Source: an uncultured Lachnospiraceae bacterium (GTDB lineage: Bacteria; Bacillota; Clostridia; Lachnospirales; Lachnospiraceae). Taken from it: DNA of 40,983 nt. Position 1 is the stretch's first letter. Each line of letters opens with the position of its first letter. This document shows, piece by piece, positions 29,121 to 40,518 of this stretch. Where the stretch lies: positions 1 through 40,983 of the forward strand of contig CANRMF010000017.1 in assembly GCA_947631665.1 (NCBI GenBank), read 5' to 3'. The notes beneath the pieces are model-generated. The model was not told the origin of the DNA. It did not search any database and saw nothing but the letters and a program-made list of their open reading frames with translations. A program made the translations under genes and the position numbers.

Positions 29121-29666
29121 ATGACATACGACAGAAAATATGTAATTGCTTCGATGGAAGGCGACCAGACGGCATTTGCCCTGCTCTATGATGAGATTTA
29201 TTCTGATTTGTACCGCATGGCAGTTTATATGTCGGGCAGTACGGCTGTTGCCGAAGACCTTGTGAGTGAGACAGTTCTTGCGGCATATCAGGGAATTGCC
29301 GGTTTGAAATCGCCGGATTCATTTGAAGCATGGATTTTTAAAATCCTTTCCACTACGGTAAGACGGAGTTTCCACCGGAAATATCACAGTTTTTCCATCT
29401 ACAATCCAAACGCCGTAACGCCGGATTGCATTGCGCAAAAGGGATTGGATTTGACCGGCAATGAAATTGTAAAAATGGATTTGCTTCGGGCAGTTGCAAA
29501 ATTAAAGCATACAGACCGTCTGATTATTTCCCTGTGCGTACTGGAGGGGTATTCAAGCCGCGAGGTTTCTCAAATTCTTTCCATGAACGCAGCAACCGTC
29601 CGATCCCGTCTGAACCGCAGCCTGAAAAAATTGAGAAATGAATTGGAGGAACATGGTTATGAGTAA
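29121..29666 (+). CDS. ECF-type RNA polymerase sigma factor
   Basis: A 181-residue sigma-70-family protein with region 2 at about 10-80 (DQTAFALLYDEIYSDLYRMAVYM..AEDLVSETVLAAYQ, then a WIFKILSTT segment that binds core and the -10). Region 4 lies at about 118-172 (KLKHTDRLIISLCVLEGYSSREVSQILSMNAATVRSRLNRS, the HTH for the -35). There is no region 3, as is usual for ECF sigmas. AGAGGT precedes the ATG. The next gene overlaps by 8 nt and encodes a single-TM protein with a cytoplasmic N-terminus, the classic place of an anti-sigma factor. So this sigma is probably held at the membrane and released by an extracytoplasmic signal. Its regulon is unknown. Confidence 0.9.
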   Translation: MTYDRKYVIASMEGDQTAFALLYDEIYSDLYRMAVYMSGSTAVAEDLVSETVLAAYQGIAGLKSPDSFEAWIFKILSTTVRRSFHRKYHSFSIYNPNAVTPDCIAQKGLDLTGNEIVKMDLLRAVAKLKHTDRLIISLCVLEGYSSREVSQILSMNAATVRSRLNRSLKKLRNELEEHGYE

Positions 29667-31980
29667 ATACTTTCATCAGGATATCGAACAGGAAAATCAA
29701 GAAATTGCCGACAGGCTCTTGGCGGAAAGTCAGAATATTCCGATTCCGGAACATCAACCGTTGGAGGAACTGTTAAGCGGTACAAAGAGAAGTATTCCTG
29801 AGGAAAAAACGCCGCAGAAATTCCGGCAGAATAAAAAGAAGGCGACCGCGCTTGCTGCCTGTCTGCTGCTTCTGGTTGGTATCGGAAGTATGCAGTTTGT
29901 AAAACAGGCTGCAGACAACGCTTCCCTTACTGAAAGAGCCTCTGTTTCATTGGCAGAGAACGCCACAGACGACATTCCTGCGCGCATGGCGACAGATTAT
30001 GACCAAATTTATAAAGCATTTCAAAATACTGTTTTTGCCGCTTCCTTTTCCCAATCAGGCAGTCATGATATTGCCAAAGAATCTCTCTCAAAGACCGGCC
30101 TGATGGATACATCGTCTGCTACCGGCATGGATTACAGCACCACGAATGTACAGACAGACGGAATTGACGAGGACGACTTGGCAAAAACTGACGGGACGTA
30201 TATTTACTCCGTCAAACAAACCGACCGGAAAAGTATCATTTACATTACAAAGGCAGAAAAAACGGCCACCCGCACGATATCTTCCATAACGGTTTCCCGT
30301 TTGCCAAAAAAAAGCAGCGACGCGGTAACGTTTCATGGAATTTACCTTTATGACCACTATCTGGCTGCTCTCTACACCAGAAATCAGTATGACACAAAAA
30401 AAGACATACAAAATATTAACCCTTTTATTCAGTCGTCCTTTTCAAAAACCGATGATGTTTTATACCCGTCCAAATCAACCGTTATCATAAAAGTTTATGA
30501 TATCGCGGACAGGGCAGATCCAAAACTGCTGCACACAAACCGGCAGGAAGGCTCTTACGTTTCTTCCCGAATGAAAGACGCCCATTTATACACCGTCACT
30601 GCAAAATCTGCCGATATCTCTGAAAAAGTTTTTGATTATCCGGCCGCATATAATGATGAATATACTGCTTTCTATTATGATGAAACCTGTATTCCGGAAA
30701 TTAACGGGGAAAAAATTCCGGCAAAAAATATTTATCTGCCGAATAAGATTGACGTTGCCGGATTCAGCATTGCAACCGTTCTCGATGTAACGGACAGCTC
30801 TGACTTTCAAAATCTGGTTTCCGTTGCCGGAACATGCGACCAGATTTATGTCAGCGCCGACAACCTGTATCTGATTAACAACTATTACGACACTGTGGAT
30901 TTATCCGAAGAAGAAAATCCATTTCAGAATAAGAAGCTTAAAAAGGGACGTTTGGTGGAAGAAGATCTCCGCAATTTAAAAAAGCAGATTCAAGACGCCA
31001 ATCCCGATATTTCCATTGAAAATATCAAAGAAGAAGTCTACCGCAGGGATATCGAGTCGGTTTCTTTCGTCAACATTGTAAAATACCGCTATGACAAAGA
31101 CCGGCTTTCCTTTGTGGCGGAGAACAATTTTGCCGGTACTGCTTACAACAACTTATTTTTTGATGAAAAAGAAGACTATCTGCGCTTTGTATCTTCAGTA
31201 GAACCGGAGTTTCACGCGGGATTTCAAATCAACCTGTATGATGAGAAAAACCGTCTGCTGAATTCTTATTACGAAAGCCGCAGATATCAAGATGAGCCGC
31301 TTACTTCGCAGGTGACGGTGCTTGACGGGAATTTAAACCGGATTGCGCTGATTGACCATCTGGCAAAGGGGGAAACGCTGTATGCCGCGCGCTATCTGGG
31401 CGATTACGGATACTTTGTGACGTTTGAAGAAACAGATCCCCTGTTTTGTGTAGATTTCAGCGACATCAGAAATCCAAAAATCACAGCCAAGCTGAAGCTT
31501 CCGGGCTACTCCTCCTATCTCGGATTTTATGGCAGTGACCTGCTCTTGGGGTTCGGCGCTGAAGATAAAGATGACCGCTCGTTACTGAAGCTTGAAATGT
31601 ACGACGTTTCCAATGGAAATGCCCTCCGGCAGGCGAAGCGGTATGTCGGAAAAAAAGACGCCTACTCCCCTGCACTTTATGACTACAAAGCGCTTCTGAC
31701 AGACGCAGGAAAAAATCTCATCGGCTTTTATTATGATGACGATATCGGCAGTGGAAATGAATATGTCCTGCAGTCTTATTACGCGCTGTATTCGTACAAA
31801 AACAAAAAGTTTTCGCGCATTGCAAACATTCCTCTGAAAGATTGTCAGTCAGACAATATTAAGGGACTCTATATCGGGCATTATTTCTATGTCGTTGACT
31901 GTGATTATGGCATTTACGCTTTTGACCTTATGAAGCCTGAATTTTATCAGACGAATGAATTTTCCGCGCCAGATAAATAA
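29659..31980 (+). CDS. Membrane-anchored beta-propeller protein, probable anti-sigma factor
   Basis: The product is 773 residues. A cytoplasmic N-terminus of about 60 residues (HQDIEQENQEIADRLLAES) is followed by one TM segment near 62-80 (TALAACLLLLVGIGSMQFV). A long extracytoplasmic region follows with TNVQTDGIDEDDLAKTDG (about 162-179), the signature at the start of the Beta_propel (PF09826) family, and repeated YLGDYGYFVTF-like blades. The start was set at the third in-frame ATG, 9 nt after GGAGG, giving an 8-nt overlap with the sigma gene. Overlap, topology and neighbour make it a likely anti-sigma sensor; the N-terminus does not clearly show a zinc anti-sigma motif. Its 3' end overlaps the convergent transporter gene by 53 bp. 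Confidence 0.85.
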   Translation: MSKYFHQDIEQENQEIADRLLAESQNIPIPEHQPLEELLSGTKRSIPEEKTPQKFRQNKKKATALAACLLLLVGIGSMQFVKQAADNASLTERASVSLAENATDDIPARMATDYDQIYKAFQNTVFAASFSQSGSHDIAKESLSKTGLMDTSSATGMDYSTTNVQTDGIDEDDLAKTDGTYIYSVKQTDRKSIIYITKAEKTATRTISSITVSRLPKKSSDAVTFHGIYLYDHYLAALYTRNQYDTKKDIQNINPFIQSSFSKTDDVLYPSKSTVIIKVYDIADRADPKLLHTNRQEGSYVSSRMKDAHLYTVTAKSADISEKVFDYPAAYNDEYTAFYYDETCIPEINGEKIPAKNIYLPNKIDVAGFSIATVLDVTDSSDFQNLVSVAGTCDQIYVSADNLYLINNYYDTVDLSEEENPFQNKKLKKGRLVEEDLRNLKKQIQDANPDISIENIKEEVYRRDIESVSFVNIVKYRYDKDRLSFVAENNFAGTAYNNLFFDEKEDYLRFVSSVEPEFHAGFQINLYDEKNRLLNSYYESRRYQDEPLTSQVTVLDGNLNRIALIDHLAKGETLYAARYLGDYGYFVTFEETDPLFCVDFSDIRNPKITAKLKLPGYSSYLGFYGSDLLLGFGAEDKDDRSLLKLEMYDVSNGNALRQAKRYVGKKDAYSPALYDYKALLTDAGKNLIGFYYDDDIGSGNEYVLQSYYALYSYKNKKFSRIANIPLKDCQSDNIKGLYIGHYFYVVDCDYGIYAFDLMKPEFYQTNEFSAPDK

Positions 31981-32635
31981 ACGGAGTATCCGCAAGGCTT
32001 GTGAAAATAAAAATCACATAACTTGAGATGACAATACTCCAAAGCGTTTTGAGGTCATAAACGCCGGCAAAAGCTCCTGTGGTAAACAGCAGATTGTTTA
32101 AAAACTGTGAAATCAGTGTAGAACCGTTATTTCTGACCCAGAGATATTTTTTGCTGTCGCCGCAGAGCTTTTCCGTAAAGTTCCACCACTTGTGATATGC
32201 CCAGACGTCAAACCGCTGTACAATGGCATAGACAATCAGGCTTGCCAGCATTGTACGGGGAGTGTTGGAAAAAATTGCTTTCATCGAGGTCATTGCCTGA
32301 TCGGAAGCGGCCGGCGTATATAAAAGCCACCACTGGGAAAATACGATAAAGGCAATGGACGTGGCAACGCCGATATTCACCGCTCTTTTTGCATCGCTCT
32401 TTCCATAAATTTCGCTGATAATGTCCGTTACCAGAAACGTTGATGCAAACAGCACGTTTCCCAGCGTCATCTCCATTCCAAAAGCCTTAACTAAAATCAG
32501 CACTTCAATATTCGCCGCGATTGTCGCGATTGCCGTAAAACAGTACAAGCCCTGTTTTCCAAATAATTTAAAAAATAAAAGTTCTGCTCCGTAAATAATA
32601 AATACAGATAAAATCAGTAAAATTTCGTTGTTCAT
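31928..32635 (-). CDS. Queuosine precursor transporter (YhhQ/VUT family)
   Basis: A 235-residue integral membrane protein of the VUT_1 family (PF02592) with about six TM helices. Hallmarks are VTDIISEIYGKSDAKRAVNIGV (about 66-87), a FSQWWLLY segment, YAIVQRFDVWAYHKWW, and RNNGSTLISQFLNNLLFTTGAF. It imports preQ0/preQ1 or queuine for tRNA queuosine. The start MNNEILLIL has AAGGAG in front; a longer upstream frame was rejected. A preQ1-I-type aptamer and two terminators lie upstream, just after rpoC, which supports the substrate. The last 53 bp overlap the 3' end of the convergent beta-propeller gene. Confidence 0.9.
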   Translation of the reverse strand: MNNEILLILSVFIIYGAELLFFKLFGKQGLYCFTAIATIAANIEVLILVKAFGMEMTLGNVLFASTFLVTDIISEIYGKSDAKRAVNIGVATSIAFIVFSQWWLLYTPAASDQAMTSMKAIFSNTPRTMLASLIVYAIVQRFDVWAYHKWWNFTEKLCGDSKKYLWVRNNGSTLISQFLNNLLFTTGAFAGVYDLKTLWSIVISSYVIFIFTSLADTPFIYLARKIHSSDKIQAS

Positions 32636-32751
32636 TTTCTTTCTGCTCCTTTGTATATTCTTTTCATGACATTGTTTTGAGATAGAACTATGAAAGCGCC
32701 GTTTTTTTACATAAAAACTCCGCAATCATAAACAGGGCAGTCCGTACAAAC

Positions 32752-32785
32752 AAAAAAAGAGTTCCTGTACTAAGGAACTCTTTTT
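32752..32785 (-). terminator. Terminator T2, the likely riboswitch-controlled terminator
   Basis: On the minus strand GAGTTCC-TTAGTACA-GGAACTC is followed by seven T residues. Its 5' arm and loop contain CCTTAGT, the exact complement of the ACTAAGG tail of the upstream aptamer, so the two pairings exclude each other. It also has A and T runs on both sides and could work on the plus strand. Confidence 0.85.
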
Positions 32786-32804
32786 GATACACTTCAATGA
32801 GAAC

Positions 32805-32830
32805 AAAAATGAACCGGCCGGTTCATTTTT
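32805..32830. terminator. Terminator T1, 26-bp perfect palindrome after the aptamer
   Basis: AAAAATGAACCGG-CCGGTTCATTTTT is a perfect palindrome; the RNA stem TGAACC-GGCC-GGTTCA is followed by TTTTTG. It may be the general rpoBC terminator, working in both directions, or part of the riboswitch platform. Confidence 0.75.
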
Positions 32831-32838
32831 GCTTCAGC

Positions 32839-32879
32839 CCTTAGTTTTGTTTATAGACAGGATGGTTCCGAACTGTCTG
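32839..32879 (-). ncRNA. preQ1-I-type riboswitch aptamer
   Basis: On the minus strand the P1 stem is GACAG (32877-32873) with CTGTC (32860-32856). The loop opens with TTC and closes with ATCC, and the A-rich tail TATAAACAAAACTAAGG supplies the CTAAGG that forms the pseudoknot. This is the known preQ1 class I layout. It sits 5' of a queuosine precursor transporter gene, as such riboswitches often do. P1 starts 7 nt after the rpoC stop, so no promoter fits between them. With preQ1 bound, ACTAAGG is held in the pseudoknot and T2 can form; without it ACTAAGG may pair with CCTTAGT and prevent T2. Confidence 0.85.
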
Positions 32880-32884
32880 TTATT

Positions 32885-35800
32885 TTATTCCGTTACTTCT
32901 GATGGCTCCTCAACAATTTCGGAAACTTCCATTTCCTCTGCTTCTTCCATTTCGCCGAGTTCGAGGATATCTTCTTCCCCAAGCGTTGGAATAGCGCTGC
33001 CTGTGTCGAGTTTTACTCCGTTATAACGTTTCATGCCGGTTCCTGCCGGAATCAGTTTACCAATCAGAACATTTTCCTTAATGCCGAGCAGCGGATCTAC
33101 CTTGCCCTTAATTGCGGCATCGGTCAGCACTCTTGTCGTCTCTTGGAAAGAGGCTGCGGACAGGAATGAATTGGTAGCCAGAGAAGACTTCGTAATACCC
33201 AGCATAATCTGTGTACCGGACGCCGGCTCTTTTCCTTCCGCTACAAGTTTTTCGTTGACTTCATTAAATTCTAACACATCAACGGTAATTCCCGGAAGGT
33301 AGTTGGAATCTCCGGCTTCGTCAACGCGGATTTTCTTTAACATCTGACGTACAATCACTTCGATATGCTTGTCATTGATGTCTACACCCTGCAGACGGTA
33401 AACCTTCTGTACTTCGCGGATCATATAATCCTGTACTGCGCGAAGTCCTTTAATGCGAAGCAGGTCATGCGGATTGATACTTCCTTCTGTCAGCTCGTCG
33501 CCCGCCTCGATGGTTCCGCCATCGGTAATCTTCGGATTCATTCTGGAACCATAAGGAATCAGATATGCCTTTTCCTCTCCGGTTTCCGGATTTGTCACGA
33601 TAATCTCGCGTTTCTTCTTGTTTTCCTTAATTTCCGTTCTTCCGCCAAATTCTGAAAGAATTGCAAGACCTTTCGGCTTTCTTGCCTCAAACAATTCCTC
33701 TACTCTCGGAAGACCTTGTGTGATATCGTCACCTGCCACACCACCGGTATGGAAGGTTCTCATCGTAAGCTGTGTACCCGGCTCGCCGATGGACTGCGCT
33801 GCAATGATACCAACTGCCTCGCCAACCTGCACTCTCTGACCGGTTGCCATGTTTGCGCCGTAACACTTCGCACAGACACCGATACGGGAACGGCAGGTAA
33901 GAATGGTACGGATTTTTACTTTTTCCACGCCGGTTGCCACAATCTTTGCGGCTCTCTTTGGCGTAATCATATGATTTACTTTGACAATCATATTGCCGTC
34001 TGCATCATAGATTGTCTCCGCAGCAGTTCTTCCGGTAATTCTCTCCTCCAGCGTCTCTACGACTTCATTTCCATTCATCAGGGTTTCAATTTCCATATAG
34101 GAAATATCATCTCTACCCTCGCAGCAGTCCACATCGCGGATAATTAAATCCTGTGATACGTCTACCAGACGTCTGGTCAGGTAACCGGAATCGGCGGTAC
34201 GGAGCGCCGTATCAGACAGACCTTTACGGGCACCATGCGCTGAAATAAAGTACTCCAATACGTCAAGACCTTCTCGGAAGTTTGACTTAATCGGAAGTTC
34301 GATGGTTTTACCGGTTGTATCCGCCATCAGTCCACGCATACCTGCGAGCTGTTTAATCTGCTGGTTGGAACCACGCGCGCCGGAATCCGCCATCATATAG
34401 ATGTTGTTATATCGATCAAGACCACCAAGCAAGGCGTCGGTCAATTCATCATCGGCTTTCTGCCATGTTCCGATAACTTCCCGATATCTTTCTTCGTCTG
34501 TCATAAATCCACGCCGGTAATTCTTTGTAATCTGTTCTACGGTCGCCTCCGCGTCGGCAAGAATCTGCTTCTTGGACTCCGGAATCGTCATATCGGAAAT
34601 GGAAACGGTCATTGCCGCCTGCGTCGAATACTTATATCCCATTGCCTTGATGTCGTCTAACACTTCTGCGGTCTTTGTTGCGCCATGGTTATTGATTACT
34701 TTTTCCAAAATCTGTTTGAGCTGTTTCTTTCCTACATGGAAATCCACTTCAAATTTCAGATAATCCTCATCACTCTCTCTTTTAACAAATCCCAAATCCT
34801 GTGGAAGAATTTCGTTAAAGAGGCAGCGTCCCAAAGTCGTGTCAATAATACCCGTAACGGTCTTTCCCTCTGCATTGTACACAGTTCTCTTTACTTTAAT
34901 TCTCTGATGAAGGGAAATATCCCCATTTTCATATGCTAAAATTGCCTGATTGACAGAACTGTAAGAGTGTCCTAAAACATCTTGCGGCAGACAGATGACT
35001 ACCCTGTCAATATCCTGATATTTGATATAATCTGAAGTTGTAATCTTTCCTTCGTTGATGGCTTTGATGATTTCCGCATCATTCTTGTAAGTTTTCGCTC
35101 TGGAAGACACTTTTGACGCAATCTGTTCGTCACCGGAATAATCCACCATCTTTTCCATCGTCAGATAGTAAATACCAAGCACCATATCCTGTGAAGGCAC
35201 TGCCACCGGTGCGCCGTCAGACGGTTTCAAAAGGTTGTTCGGTGAAAGCAGTAAAAATCTGCACTCTGCCTGCGCTTCCACAGAAAGCGGAAGATGCACA
35301 GCCATCTGGTCACCGTCGAAGTCGGCGTTAAATGCCGTACATACGAGCGGGTGAAGTTTAATCGCCTTGCCCTCTACAAGAATCGGCTCAAATGCCTGAA
35401 TACCAAGTCTGTGCAATGTAGGCGCGCGGTTTAACATTACCGGGTGCTCTTTAATGACATCTTCTAAAACGTCCCAAACCTCTGTTTCCAGACGCTCTAC
35501 CATTTTCTTTGCGCTCTTAATATTGTGTGCAATTCCCTTCAGTACCAGTTCTTTCATTACGAAAGGCTTGAACAGCTCAATTGCCATTTCTTTCGGAAGA
35601 CCGCACTGATAAATCTTCAACTCCGGCCCAACGACAATAACGGAACGTCCTGAATAGTCAACACGCTTACCAAGAAGGTTCTGACGGAACCGTCCCTGCT
35701 TACCTTTGAGCATATCGGAAAGAGATTTCAGGGCTCTGTTGCCCGGGCCTGTCACAGCCCTTCCTCGTCTTCCGTTGTCAATCAGCGCGTCCACTGCCTC

Positions 35801-36682
35801 CTGAAGCATTCTCTTTTCATTGCGGACAATGATTTCCGGAGCGCCCAGTTCGAGCAGACGGTTTAAACGGTTGTTTCTGTTAATAATTCTTCTGTACAAA
35901 TCGTTCAGGTCAGAGGTTGCAAATCTGCCGCCGTCCAACTGAACCATTGGCCGCAAATCCGGCGGGATAACCGGTATTACGTCCATAATCATCCACTCCG
36001 GTCTGTTCCCGGAATTTCTGAACGCTTCAAAAACCTCCAGTCGTTTTACGAGCTTTGCTCTCTTTTGTCCGGTAGCTTCAAATAATTCTTCTTTTAATTC
36101 CTGCGCTTCCTTATCAAGGTCAATCGCCTGAAGCAATTCCTTGATGGATTCCGCGCCCATTCCGACTCTGAACTTTCCTTCAAATTCGTCGTAAGCTTCC
36201 CTGTATTCTTTTTCCGTCAACACCTGCTTGTATTCCAGCGTGGTATCCATCGGATCCAATACAATATAAGAAGCAAAATATAATACTTTTTCCAGCACTC
36301 TCGGTGAAATGTCAAGAATCAATCCCATTCTGGAAGGAATTCCCTTAAAGTACCAGATATGAGATACCGGTGTGGCAAGTTCCACACAGCCCATACGCTC
36401 TCTACGGACGCTGGCTTTGGTGACTTCCACGCCGCAGCGGTCGCAGACGACGCCCTTATATCTGATTTTCTTGTACTTACCGCAATGACATTCCCAGTCC
36501 TTGCTCGGCCCGAAAATCTTTTCGCAGAACAGACCGTCCTTTTCCGGCTTTAAGGTTCTGTAATTGATTGTCTCAGGCTTTGTCACCTCACCGCGAGACC
36601 ATTCTCTGATTTTTTCAGGTGATGCAAGACCAATTTTTATTTTGTCAAATGACACCTGCTCACTAACATGATTGTCTGCCAT
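32885..36682 (-). CDS. rpoC: RNA polymerase beta-prime subunit
   Basis: This 1265-residue subunit holds the catalytic centre. The N-terminal zinc ribbon has C65, C67, C80 and C83. NADFDGDQM (452-460) binds the catalytic Mg. The bridge helix, the trigger-loop region ([23 protein letters not shown]) and the second zinc site ([13 protein letters not shown]) follow. The C-terminus is short and acidic ([17 protein letters not shown]). Length is at the upper end for the compact Gram-positive form. AGGGAG precedes the ATG, which lies 20 nt after rpoB. Its stop codon is followed almost at once by a preQ1-type aptamer, which links the operon to a queuosine precursor transporter gene. Confidence 0.98.
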
Positions 36683-36702: not shown

Positions 36703-39700
36703 TTATTCTTCCACACCTAAATCTACGGTCTGGAGTTCTTCGCCTACAAATTCCTGCGTCTGGAAGCCTGCCTGTTCAAATTCGCGGCTTCCTTCCTGCT
36801 TCTGGCTGTAATTCTTTTCACTGTTTAAGATAGAATTAAAGTTTGTATCGCCATAATCTGTGCTTTCTTTGAGTTCAACTTCGTTGTCATTCTCATCTAA
36901 GACTTTAACGTCCAGTGCCAATGACTGAAGTTCCTTAATCAGCACCTTGAAGGATTCAGGAATACCCGGCTGAGGGATATTTTCACCCTTGATAATTGCT
37001 TCATAAGTTTTTACACGTCCGACAACGTCATCAGACTTTACGGTCAGGATTTCCTGCAATGTGTAAGATGCGCCATATGCCTCAAGCGCCCAAACTTCCA
37101 TCTCTCCAAATCTCTGTCCGCCGAACTGCGCCTTACCGCCAAGCGGCTGCTGTGTTACAAGGGAGTACGGGCCTGTGGAACGCGCATGAATTTTATCGTC
37201 TACCAGATGGTGCAGTTTCAGATAATGCATGAAACCGATAGTAACCGGATTGTCAAAATAATCGCCGGTACGTCCGTCGCGCAGACGTACTTTTCCGTCG
37301 CGGTTAATCGGAACGCCTTTCCATTCTTCCCGATGGTCGAGATGACTTCCGAGATATTCCATAACCTCCGGTTTCAAAATATCCTGATATTTCTTCTTGA
37401 AGTCTTCCCACTCTGTATTTGCATAATCGTTGGCAAGTTCAAGCGTATCCATAATGTCAATTTCGTTTGCACCGTCAAATACCGGTGTGGAAATATTAAA
37501 GCCTAATACCTTTGCGGCCAGACTCAAATGAATTTCAAGTACCTGACCGATATTCATACGGGAAGGAACGCCTAACGGATTTAATACGATATCCAGCGGA
37601 CGCCCGTTCGGAAGGAACGGCATATCTTCTACCGGAAGCACTCTGGAAACAACACCTTTGTTACCATGACGTCCCGCCATCTTATCACCTACGGAAATCT
37701 TTCTCTTCTGCGCAATATAAATGCGGACGGATTCATTAACTCCCGGCGCCAGTTCGTCGCCGTTTTCCCTCTTGAATACCTTAGCGTCCACAACAATACC
37801 GGATTCGCCATGCGGTACTTTGAGAGAGGTATCTCTTACTTCTCTTGCTTTCTCACCAAAGATTGCGCGGAGCAGCCTCTCCTCCGGCGTCAGTTCCGTT
37901 TCGCCCTTCGGCGTTACTTTGCCGACTAAGATATCGCCGGCGCGAACCTCAGCGCCAATGCGGATAATACCGCGTTCGTCCAAATCTTTTCTTGCGTCGT
38001 CGCCGACACCCGGAACATCATTGGTGATTTCTTCCGGCCCTAACTTGGTATCTCTGGCTTCTGTCTCGTATTCTTCAATATGGATTGATGTATAAACATC
38101 GTCCTGTACTAATCTTTCGCTTAATAAAACTGCGTCCTCGTAGTTATAACCTTCCCATGTCATAAAACCAATCAACGGGTTTTTACCGAGCGCGATTTCA
38201 CCGTTTGAGGTAGAAGCGCCGTCAGCAATGACTTCCCCTGCCTCGACATGGTCGCCCTTAAATACGATAGAGCGCTGGTTGTAACAGTTGGACTGGTTAC
38301 TTCTCTGGAATTTCAGCAGTTTGTAGGTTTCCTTTTCTCCGTCGTCATCATACTGAATCGTAATTTCCTGCGAAGTGGAACGGATTACCGTACCCGCTTT
38401 CTTTGCAACGACGCAGACGCCGGAATCGACTGCCGCCTTCGTCTCCATACCGGTACCAACCACCGGAGCCTCCGTTGTCATAAGCGGAACTGCCTGACGC
38501 TGCATGTTGGAACCCATCAGCGCGCGGTTTGCATCGTCATTCTGCAAAAACGGTATCATGGCTGTTGCCACAGAGAATACCATTCTTGGAGATACGTCCA
38601 TCAAGTCAATTCTTCTCTTATCAAACTGGGAAGTTTCTTCTTTAAAACGTCCGGATACATTATTATTTACAAAATGTCCGTCTTCGTCTAACGGTTCGTT
38701 CGCCTGCGCAACGATATAGTTATCTTCCTCGTCAGCAGTCAGATAAACGACCTCGTCCGTTACTCTCGGATTTTCGGCATCGCTTCTGTCTACAATACGA
38801 TAAGGCGCCTCCACAAATCCGTATTCATTTAATCTCGCAAAAGAAGCAAACGAGTTAATCAGACCGATGTTCGGTCCTTCAGGCGTCTCAATCGGACACA
38901 TTCTGCCGTAATGCGTATAGTGAACGTCGCGCACCTCAAATCCGGCGCGGTCTCTTGAAAGACCACCCGGCCCCAAAGCGGACAGACGTCTCTTGTGCGT
39001 CAGCTCGCCGAGCGGGTTGTTCTGATCCATGAACTGTGACAACTGGGAACTTCCGAAAAATTCTTTGACCGCAGCAGTCACCGGTTTAATGTTAATCAAT
39101 GTCTGTGGAGATATGCCTTCCAAATCCTGCGTCGTCATTCTCTCGCGGACAACTCTCTCCATTCTGGAAAGACCAATGCGGTACTGGTTCTGAAGCAGTT
39201 CTCCGACTGCGCGGATACGTCTGTTGCCCAAATGGTCAATATCGTCCTGTGAACCGATACCATATTCGATATTCATACAGTAATTGATGGAAGCAAAAAT
39301 ATCCTCTTTTGTAATGTGCTTTGGAATCAACTCATGCACATTTCTTCTGATGGCTTCTTTTAAGTCTTCCTCGGTCTCATTTTCTTCCAGAATTTCAGCG
39401 AGTACCGGATAGTAAACGTCCTCATTGATTCCGAGCTCTTTGCAGTCAAAATCAACATAGGAAGAAATATCAACCATCATATTGGACAGCACCCTCTCAT
39501 TTTTGGTGTCTGTCTGAATGACAACATAAGGAACTGCCGCATTCTGAATTTCAATTGCCAGTTCTTTGGAAACCGTCGTTCCTGCCTGCGCAAGCACTTC
39601 ACCGGTAGTCGTATCAATAACGTCTTCCGCGAGAACATGGCCTTTAATACGGTTTTTATATGCTAACTTTTTATTATATTTGTAACGTCCTACACGCGCC

Positions 39701-40518
39701 AGATCATATCTTCTGGCGTCGAAAAACATTCCTGCAACAATGGATTCTGCGCTGTCGACACTCAACGGCTCACCCGGACGGATTTTTTTGTAGAGTTCCA
39801 ACAGACCTTCTTCATAATTTGTACTCGGATCTTTTTCAAGGGTTGCGGTAATTTTTGCTTCCTCACCGAACAATTCCTGAATTTCCGCATTGGTGCCCAC
39901 GCCAAGTGCTCTGACAAGCACTGTCACCGGCACTTTTCTGGTTCTGTCCACACGCACATAAAATACGTCGTTAGAATCTGTCTCGTACTCTAACCACGCG
40001 CCGCGATTTGGAATCACCTGTGAAGTATAAAGTTCCTTTCCCACTTTGTCATGCGCAATGACATAATAAATGCCCGGCGAACGGACAAGCTGGCTGACAA
40101 TAACACGTTCCGCGCCGTTAATGACAAACGTACCCGTTTCCGTCATCAGAGGCAGATCGCCCATAAAAATGTCATGCTCGGTAAATTCTCCGGTTTCCTT
40201 ATTATGCAGTCTGACTTTTACTTTCAGCGGAGCCGCATAGGTAGCGTCCCGATCCTTACATTCCTCGATGGAATATTTTTTGTCCTCCTCGCAAAGTCTG
40301 AAATCAACAAACTCAAGGCTTAAATTCTGTCCATAGTCCTCGATTGGGGAAATATCGTCCAATACTTCTTTCAGACCAGCCGTTAAAAACCAGTTGTAGG
40401 AATCCCTCTGAACTTCAATCAGATTTGGCATTTCCAGCACTTCTTTCTGTCTGGAATAGCTCATACGAATACCTTTTCCTGCTTTCACAGGGGTGATTCT
40501 GTTTTTCTCCATTGACAT
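36703..40518 (-). CDS. rpoB: RNA polymerase beta subunit
   Basis: This 1271-residue subunit forms the upper jaw and the rifampicin pocket. The rifampicin region reads [20 protein letters not shown] then [18 protein letters not shown]. The residues most often changed in resistant strains (Asp in FMDQN, His in LTHKRR, Ser in RLSAL) are wild type, so target-based resistance is not expected. Other hallmarks are [40 protein letters not shown] and [20 protein letters not shown] stands 4-5 nt before the first ATG. A second ATG two codons later has better spacing and may be used instead. It has its own promoter, and the rplKAJL genes that usually precede it are absent. Confidence 0.98.

Follow-up and report, generated by a model that had tools for sequence, protein, structure and literature searches.

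A probably promoterless preQ1 riboswitch behind rpoC as a likely conditional terminator of the rpoBC operon in an uncultured Lachnospiraceae bacterium

In an uncultured Lachnospiraceae bacterium, one of a group of gut bacteria, the RNA polymerase genes rpoB and rpoC are followed on the same strand by an aptamer for the queuosine precursor preQ1, a terminator and a gene for a queuosine precursor transporter. We analysed this arrangement in a window of 40,983 nucleotides (nt; contig CANRMF010000017.1 of assembly GCA_947631665.1, positions 1 to 40,983), and conclude from its sequence and that of its relatives that the element is probably a preQ1 OFF switch that works through termination and has no promoter of its own, that is, a conditional 3' terminator of the rpoBC operon. 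RNA polymerase leaving rpoB-rpoC would run into a preQ1 class I, type I riboswitch that would have no promoter of its own. Without preQ1, the free tail of the aptamer (ACUAAGG) would pair with CCUUAGU in the 5' arm and loop of the terminator hairpin T2, looping out a spacer hairpin (here called T1) that lies between them, so that T2 would be blocked and transcription would proceed into the transporter gene. With preQ1 bound, the GG of the tail would be held in a pseudoknot stem, P2, with a loop CC, T2 would form and the rpoBC transcript would end. The riboswitch would thus tap a housekeeping transcript for a salvage transporter. Its parts are of known kinds; the position behind rpoC and the proposed supply of the transcript are new.

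The open reading frames of the window and family searches place the three genes on the minus strand in the order rpoB (36703..40518; NCBIfam PRK00405/TIGR02013), rpoC (32885..36682; TIGR02386, 1797.5 bits), with its stop codon TAA at 32887-32885, and the transporter gene (31928..32635), whose ATG is at 32635. The 235-residue product of the last is a queuosine precursor transporter (Vut_1/COG1738, YhhQ/QPTR family), scoring 153.8 bits against PF02592 (family cut-off 27.2) and 163.6 bits against TIGR00697 (cut-off 50.95). An earlier note on this DNA had already named rpoC and the transporter, and the searches agree with it. The 249 nt between the two genes hold a 6-nt spacer (AATAAC, 32879..32884), the aptamer, T1, T2 with its U-run, and a 115-nt leader with the Shine-Dalgarno-like AAGGAG of the transporter gene (32646..32651), well outside the aptamer. 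Re-reading of the minus strand upheld the positions that the earlier note had given for the aptamer tail, its complement in T2 and the junction with rpoC, where the first aptamer stem, P1, begins right after the spacer.

The aptamer between rpoC and the transporter gene

Judged by its sequence, the element (32835..32881, minus strand, 47 nt) is a real preQ1 class I aptamer of the type I consensus, and would bind preQ1. The earlier note had named the class and proposed a check with Infernal and the Rfam preQ1-I model (RF00522). This check gave a divided answer: a match is present at 32835-32881, but at 22.0 bits (E 0.026) it stays below the gathering score of 39. A search at the gathering level accordingly returned no aptamer, and RF00522 run on the bacterium's own genome gave none at E 0.001. 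The gathering cut-off is a curation threshold and describes no structural feature. Among 250 genomes of the family Lachnospiraceae, one per genus, 135 match RF00522 at E <= 0.05 and only 10 pass the cut-off, showing that this model suits the lineage poorly. In the loci of six relatives (loci carry L numbers and genomes G numbers below), it scored 28 bits in L006 and 29 bits in L007, and gave no match at E <= 0.1 in L005, L009, L013 and L118.

A second model, R2, was built from 11 aptamers of other genera, with the window and its genus excluded; its source loci had been found by RF00522, and the genes behind them we take to encode ECF-type transporters. R2 recognises the window aptamer at 51.3 bits (E 3.1e-11), which bears out the class assignment independently, and gives 50.5-61.8 bits in 10 more loci of the genus that follow rpoC, including two near-copies. 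Searched over 15 sources with E up to 1, it found nothing in L010, L011, L012 and L118. A third model, the lineage model R1, includes rows from the window and the genus, so its matches there are circular and are not taken as proof.

The two strands of P1, AGACAG (32873..32878) and CTGTCT (32855..32860), pair in every row of a 20-row alignment, five of the six pairs having changed on both sides, and the covariation score was equalled in none of 500 shuffles. The loop CC (32864..32865), the proposed P2 partner of the tail GG, is kept in all 20 rows and the GG in 19, with no compensatory change. An A-rich loop stands between the 3' strand of P1 and the tail ACTAAGG (32839..32845). Folded alone, the aptamer does no better than its shuffles (87 of 200 were as good), as expected for a pseudoknot with a single short stem. 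According to PMC11625349, type I aptamers are recognised by a UU that follows the 5' strand of P1, a UC that precedes the 3' strand and a C in the tail, and are reported to bind two preQ1 molecules. All three features can be read in the window, and the shared consensus suggests that two stacked preQ1 may bind here too.

The element also keeps the company of queuosine genes: the transporter gene lies downstream, and genes for queuine lyase and QueC occur nearby in relatives. That we are looking at a mere rpoC terminator region with a chance resemblance to an aptamer has a negligible probability. The sub-threshold RF00522 score would fit such a view, against which stand the R2 E-value, the covariation of P1 and the matches of R1 in 177 of the 250 family genomes, which precede queuosine genes wherever the context was read. 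Chance resemblance was rejected on the R2 score, the P1 covariation and this gene context.

Proposed competing pairings of the aptamer tail

T2 (32754..32785, minus strand, with a U-run to about 32747) was found by a terminator scan and by folding, and has counterparts in the rpoC-linked relatives. Including its U-run, it folds at -15.4 kcal/mol (32785-32754), better than all of 200 shuffles. Its 5' arm and loop contain CCTTAGT (32769..32775), the exact 7-nt complement of the tail, as the earlier note had pointed out; this 7-mer arises in 45 of 5000 dinucleotide shuffles (about 1%) of the 203-nt downstream region. We compared the same pairing in nine rpoC-linked lineages, omitting the near-copies L002 and L014 and choosing the T2 arms by eye from the hairpins. 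Tail and T2 arm form 5-7 contiguous pairs in all nine, one of which includes a G-U pair. With the tail written as ACUAxGG and the T2 arm as CCyU(A/G), x is A in four lineages, G in three and C in two, and y is complementary to x in every case (U, C and G, respectively). The permutation value for the matched base is 0.0008, with kinship ignored. Since x lies outside P1 and outside the CC/GG of P2, the match is most simply explained by pairing with T2.

Minimum free energy folding from the tail to the T2 loop was tried on 11 rows; the script rule delimited no T2 in five of them, which gave no fold, and in the other six the antiterminator formed, closing around the spacer hairpin. The predicted platform is an intrinsic terminator whose 5' arm is shared by an antiterminator made from the aptamer tail. 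As the tail GG is required by both P2 and the antiterminator, the two states would be mutually exclusive. The direction of control put forward in the earlier note, with excess preQ1 leading to T2 and the end of the transcript and shortage to readthrough, is consistent with the tail/T2 pairing in the relatives.

The earlier note had counted two terminators after the aptamer, and this holds as a shared arrangement for T2 only. T1 (32805..32830, minus strand) is a perfect palindrome with the U-run AUUUUUGUU, which folds at -15.6 kcal/mol (32832-32803), again better than all of 200 shuffles. Its place in the relatives is taken by a spacer hairpin whose sequence varies by lineage, and among the genus loci read the T1 sequence is shared only with the sister species (L002). 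A U-run of five occurs only in these two, so T1 looks private to them and T2 is the common terminator. T1, with a U-run of its own, may halt transcription regardless of preQ1, and this is the strongest doubt about the proposed switch. If T1 were the unconditional terminator of rpoBC here, the aptamer and T2 would be bypassed and the transporter would be expressed very weakly or from a promoter beyond T2. The strength of the palindrome, its U-run right behind the aptamer, its restriction to two species and the weak promoter-like pair (score 9.4) at the start of the 115 nt from T2 to the ATG would agree with this. We nevertheless hold it to be quite unlikely: most of the U-run is taken up by the stem of T1 itself, the tail and T2 are still perfectly complementary over 7 nt, and the region is 98-100% identical to that of the sister species, so that aptamer and T2 are not visibly decaying.

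Termination at T2 was also weighed against control of translation, with the AAGG of the tail serving as, or hiding, a ribosome binding site. Such an arrangement can be seen elsewhere, as AAGGAG follows the tail directly next to an ATG in L065, L071, L074 and L116. In the window the AAGGAG of the transporter gene lies 188 nt downstream of the tail, beyond both T1 and T2, and for this distance we rejected translational control as very improbable.

Transcript supply and linkage to rpoC

Promoters were scored with an approximate sigma-A weight matrix against a background of 10.91, the 99th percentile over 500 windows of rpoC coding sequence. Within 70 nt upstream of the aptamer, a promoter-like site above this background was present in none of 10 rpoC-linked loci vs 32 of 51 other aptamers (rank test p 0.003). 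The best score within 300 nt upstream of the window aptamer is 7.1. Two sequence-based methods found no promoter directly before the aptamer, and the single promoter-like site returned by a promoter scan lies inside the transporter gene. The earlier note had argued that there was no room for a promoter, which is true of the 6-nt gap; none was found inside the end of rpoC either.

Alternatively, a promoter concealed in the 3' end of rpoC could drive what would then be an ordinary preQ1 riboswitch, its location being accidental and rpoBC contributing little. Promoters within coding sequence exist, above-background pairs stand just upstream of most aptamers that are not behind rpoC, as counted above, and a fair candidate lies 64 nt before the aptamer of L003. 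This explanation is unlikely given the empty 70 nt in all ten rpoC-linked loci, the score of 7.1 in the window, the gap of 6 nt and three genomes of the genus (G001, G006 and G013) in which the rpoC stop and the transporter ATG share bases (TAATG) and no aptamer intervenes. In whole-genome searches with R1, G001 and G013 had no aptamer and G006 a single weak match elsewhere (E 0.02). The lack of a promoter signature, together with these overlaps, points to read-through from rpoBC as the most likely source of transporter transcripts. The proposal that rpoBC transcription feeds the transporter, made in the earlier note, is thus favoured by the missing promoter signature, gene order and TAATG overlaps alike. 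A promoter-like site above background is also missing upstream of some aptamers outside the genus (L103, L123, L058, L095, L099, L101, L109, L110 and L111), which may be fed by other upstream genes.

The earlier note had asked whether the order rpoC-aptamer-transporter recurs, and within the genus it does. Our sample comprised 23 genomes, 15 of them with the transporter, and in 12 of these 15 the aptamer lies upstream of the transporter unit. By tblastn, rpoC is directly upstream in 11 of the 12; the contig of G017 keeps only bases that match, by eye, the rpoC end of L013, and in G018 the transporter is split over two contigs. Five of the 12 have a radical SAM gene between aptamer and transporter, which matches queuine lyase (PDB 6p78, E 2.5e-47). 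About 45 nt around GCAGAGAAATTGATGC, before the transporter, are similar in L003, L004 and L005, though L005 has no queL; they are perhaps a remnant or a further element.

Beyond the genus the junction with rpoC is unusual, as the earlier note had thought. We examined the best 80 named of 321 transporter relatives, with up to 5 kb of upstream DNA. An R1 aptamer (E <= 0.001) lies upstream in 64 of these 80, and 61 have queL; among the 73 named loci outside the genus, it stands beside the transporter in 58. In eight, rpoC is upstream: seven of the genus and L118 (4737-5001), a distant lineage in which the transporter directly follows rpoC; the terminator between the two looks ordinary, and neither R2 nor RF00522 matches an aptamer there. 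A further 70 aptamer loci from the rest of the family were read; RF00522 had supplied 30 of them and the better R1 matches 40, and rpoC was upstream in none of the 68 with enough upstream DNA. When 14 transporters of the genus and 23 selected others were placed in a midpoint-rooted tree, the genus formed one group (support 95/88), and the move behind rpoC therefore looks like a single event. The aptamer-less L010-L012 fall among the aptamer-bearing L013, L014 and L009, which points to a probable loss of the aptamer in these three.

Compared with its sister species in 200-nt bins (window 37644-29029, L047/L002), the window is 73-94% identical over the end of rpoB and rpoC, and identity rises to 95-100% from the aptamer through the transporter and beyond. 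Between the two genomes TGT is 83.3% and QueA 98.4% identical. These figures suggest mosaic genomes, with an abrupt change of identity at the end of rpoC.

The distance from the rpoC stop to P1 is 6, 9, 11, 30, 31, 34, 34, 45, 49 and 104 nt in ten loci. preQ1 would set the 3' end of the rpoBC mRNA and give two transcript forms, and where the gap is short a terminating ribosome could delay folding of the aptamer and couple the switch to rpoC translation; the forms may differ in stability and feed back on RNA polymerase. We offer this tentatively and think it rather doubtful, and the range of distances shows that a short gap is not general in the relatives. By eye, L008, L009 and L013 carry inverted repeats without a long U-run between the rpoC stop and the aptamer, which perhaps insulate the aptamer from the ribosome.

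At its other end, the transporter gene overlaps a convergent beta-propeller gene on the plus strand (29638-31980, PF09826) by 53 nt (31928-31980), so that read-through past the transporter would go antisense into that gene. The beta-propeller gene is preceded by a sigma-70/ECF-like gene (29121-29666).

Queuosine salvage in the genus and related systems

The gene content of the genus agrees with a role in salvage. QueC matches near 200 bits occur in four of the 23 genomes, all four without the transporter. In these four, out of eight transporter-less genomes, an aptamer scoring 42-46 bits leads an operon and has a promoter-like pair (scores 9.4-11.6) 10 nt upstream of it. The first genes of the operon are presumably queD and queE, and the strong QueC match lies 1.7-2.0 kb behind the aptamer. 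TGT is found in all 23 genomes and QueA in 22. By this pattern, the transporter-bearing species look like salvagers rather than makers of preQ1.

Besides T1, several observations weigh against the switch as we propose it. The near invariance of the loop CC and tail GG leaves P2 without covariation evidence. The nine lineages compared are related, and the matched changes in tail and T2 represent fewer events than rows. An exact 6-nt complement of the tail was absent from L004 and L009, and the only one in L003 lay well beyond T2 on the downstream side; in these three loci the pairing has 5 pairs or a G-U pair. A looser script matched 10 of the 11 rpoC-linked rows, missing L004, where the T-run breaks off at an A after three T, but of 51 other aptamer loci only 7 had a matching site before a T-run, 9 having mismatching sites only and 35 none. 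The tail/terminator pairing is not general outside the rpoC-linked loci. As for promoters, L003, alone of ten, reaches 11.04 within 300 nt upstream, just over the short-window background, and eight loci have weak promoter-like pairs (scores up to 9.8) between T2 and the next start codon, that of the window lying at the U-run of T2. In L007 the gap from T2 to the start is too short for a promoter, and the row for L002 is void. Finally, weak QueC-family matches of 18-30 bits, some over the Pfam cut-off, occur in most genomes including transporter-bearing ones (29.8 bits in that of the window); we take them as other members of the superfamily.

The literature offers several partial parallels. The preQ1-I riboswitch of Bacillus subtilis queCDEF is likewise a small H-type pseudoknot in which preQ1 favours a downstream intrinsic terminator (PMC11625349), but it is of type II and sits in the leader of a biosynthesis operon, not joined to rpoC. 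That of Carnobacterium antarcticum is of type I like the window aptamer, with UU and UC beside P1 and a C in the tail, but acts on translation, as do the other type I examples tabulated in PMC11625349, whereas the platform of the window is a terminator. In Clostridioides difficile, PMC11477304 describes a preQ1-I riboswitch before queK-qrtT-queL, which as proposed here controls preQ1 salvage genes, in that case including queuine lyase; it differs in serving an ECF transporter, QrtT, and in leading its own operon. The element between lmo2683 and lmo2684 of Listeria resembles ours as a preQ1-responsive sequence between two cotranscribed genes, but it is no canonical aptamer, acts on an upstream reading frame and belongs to a sugar transport operon rather than to RNA polymerase genes (PMC12519234). 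The aptamer-queL-Vut_1 units of other Clostridia have the same aptamer and genes; there, rpoC was not found upstream in 72 of 73, most have their own promoter-like site, and the tail/T2 pairing is mostly absent. Among the titles and abstracts that our searches of open-licence literature listed, none reports a preQ1 riboswitch placed behind rpoC, though this is only weak evidence that no such report exists.

If our reading is correct, a riboswitch with no promoter to itself would control a salvage gene by metering the read-through of one of the most constant transcripts in the cell, and would also fix where the RNA polymerase mRNA ends. The loci form a natural series, from aptamer-queL-transporter units elsewhere, through rpoC-aptamer-queL-transporter and rpoC-aptamer-transporter, to the aptamer-less overlap of rpoC and transporter, in which one could trace how riboswitch control was gained and lost while the transcript supply stayed fixed.

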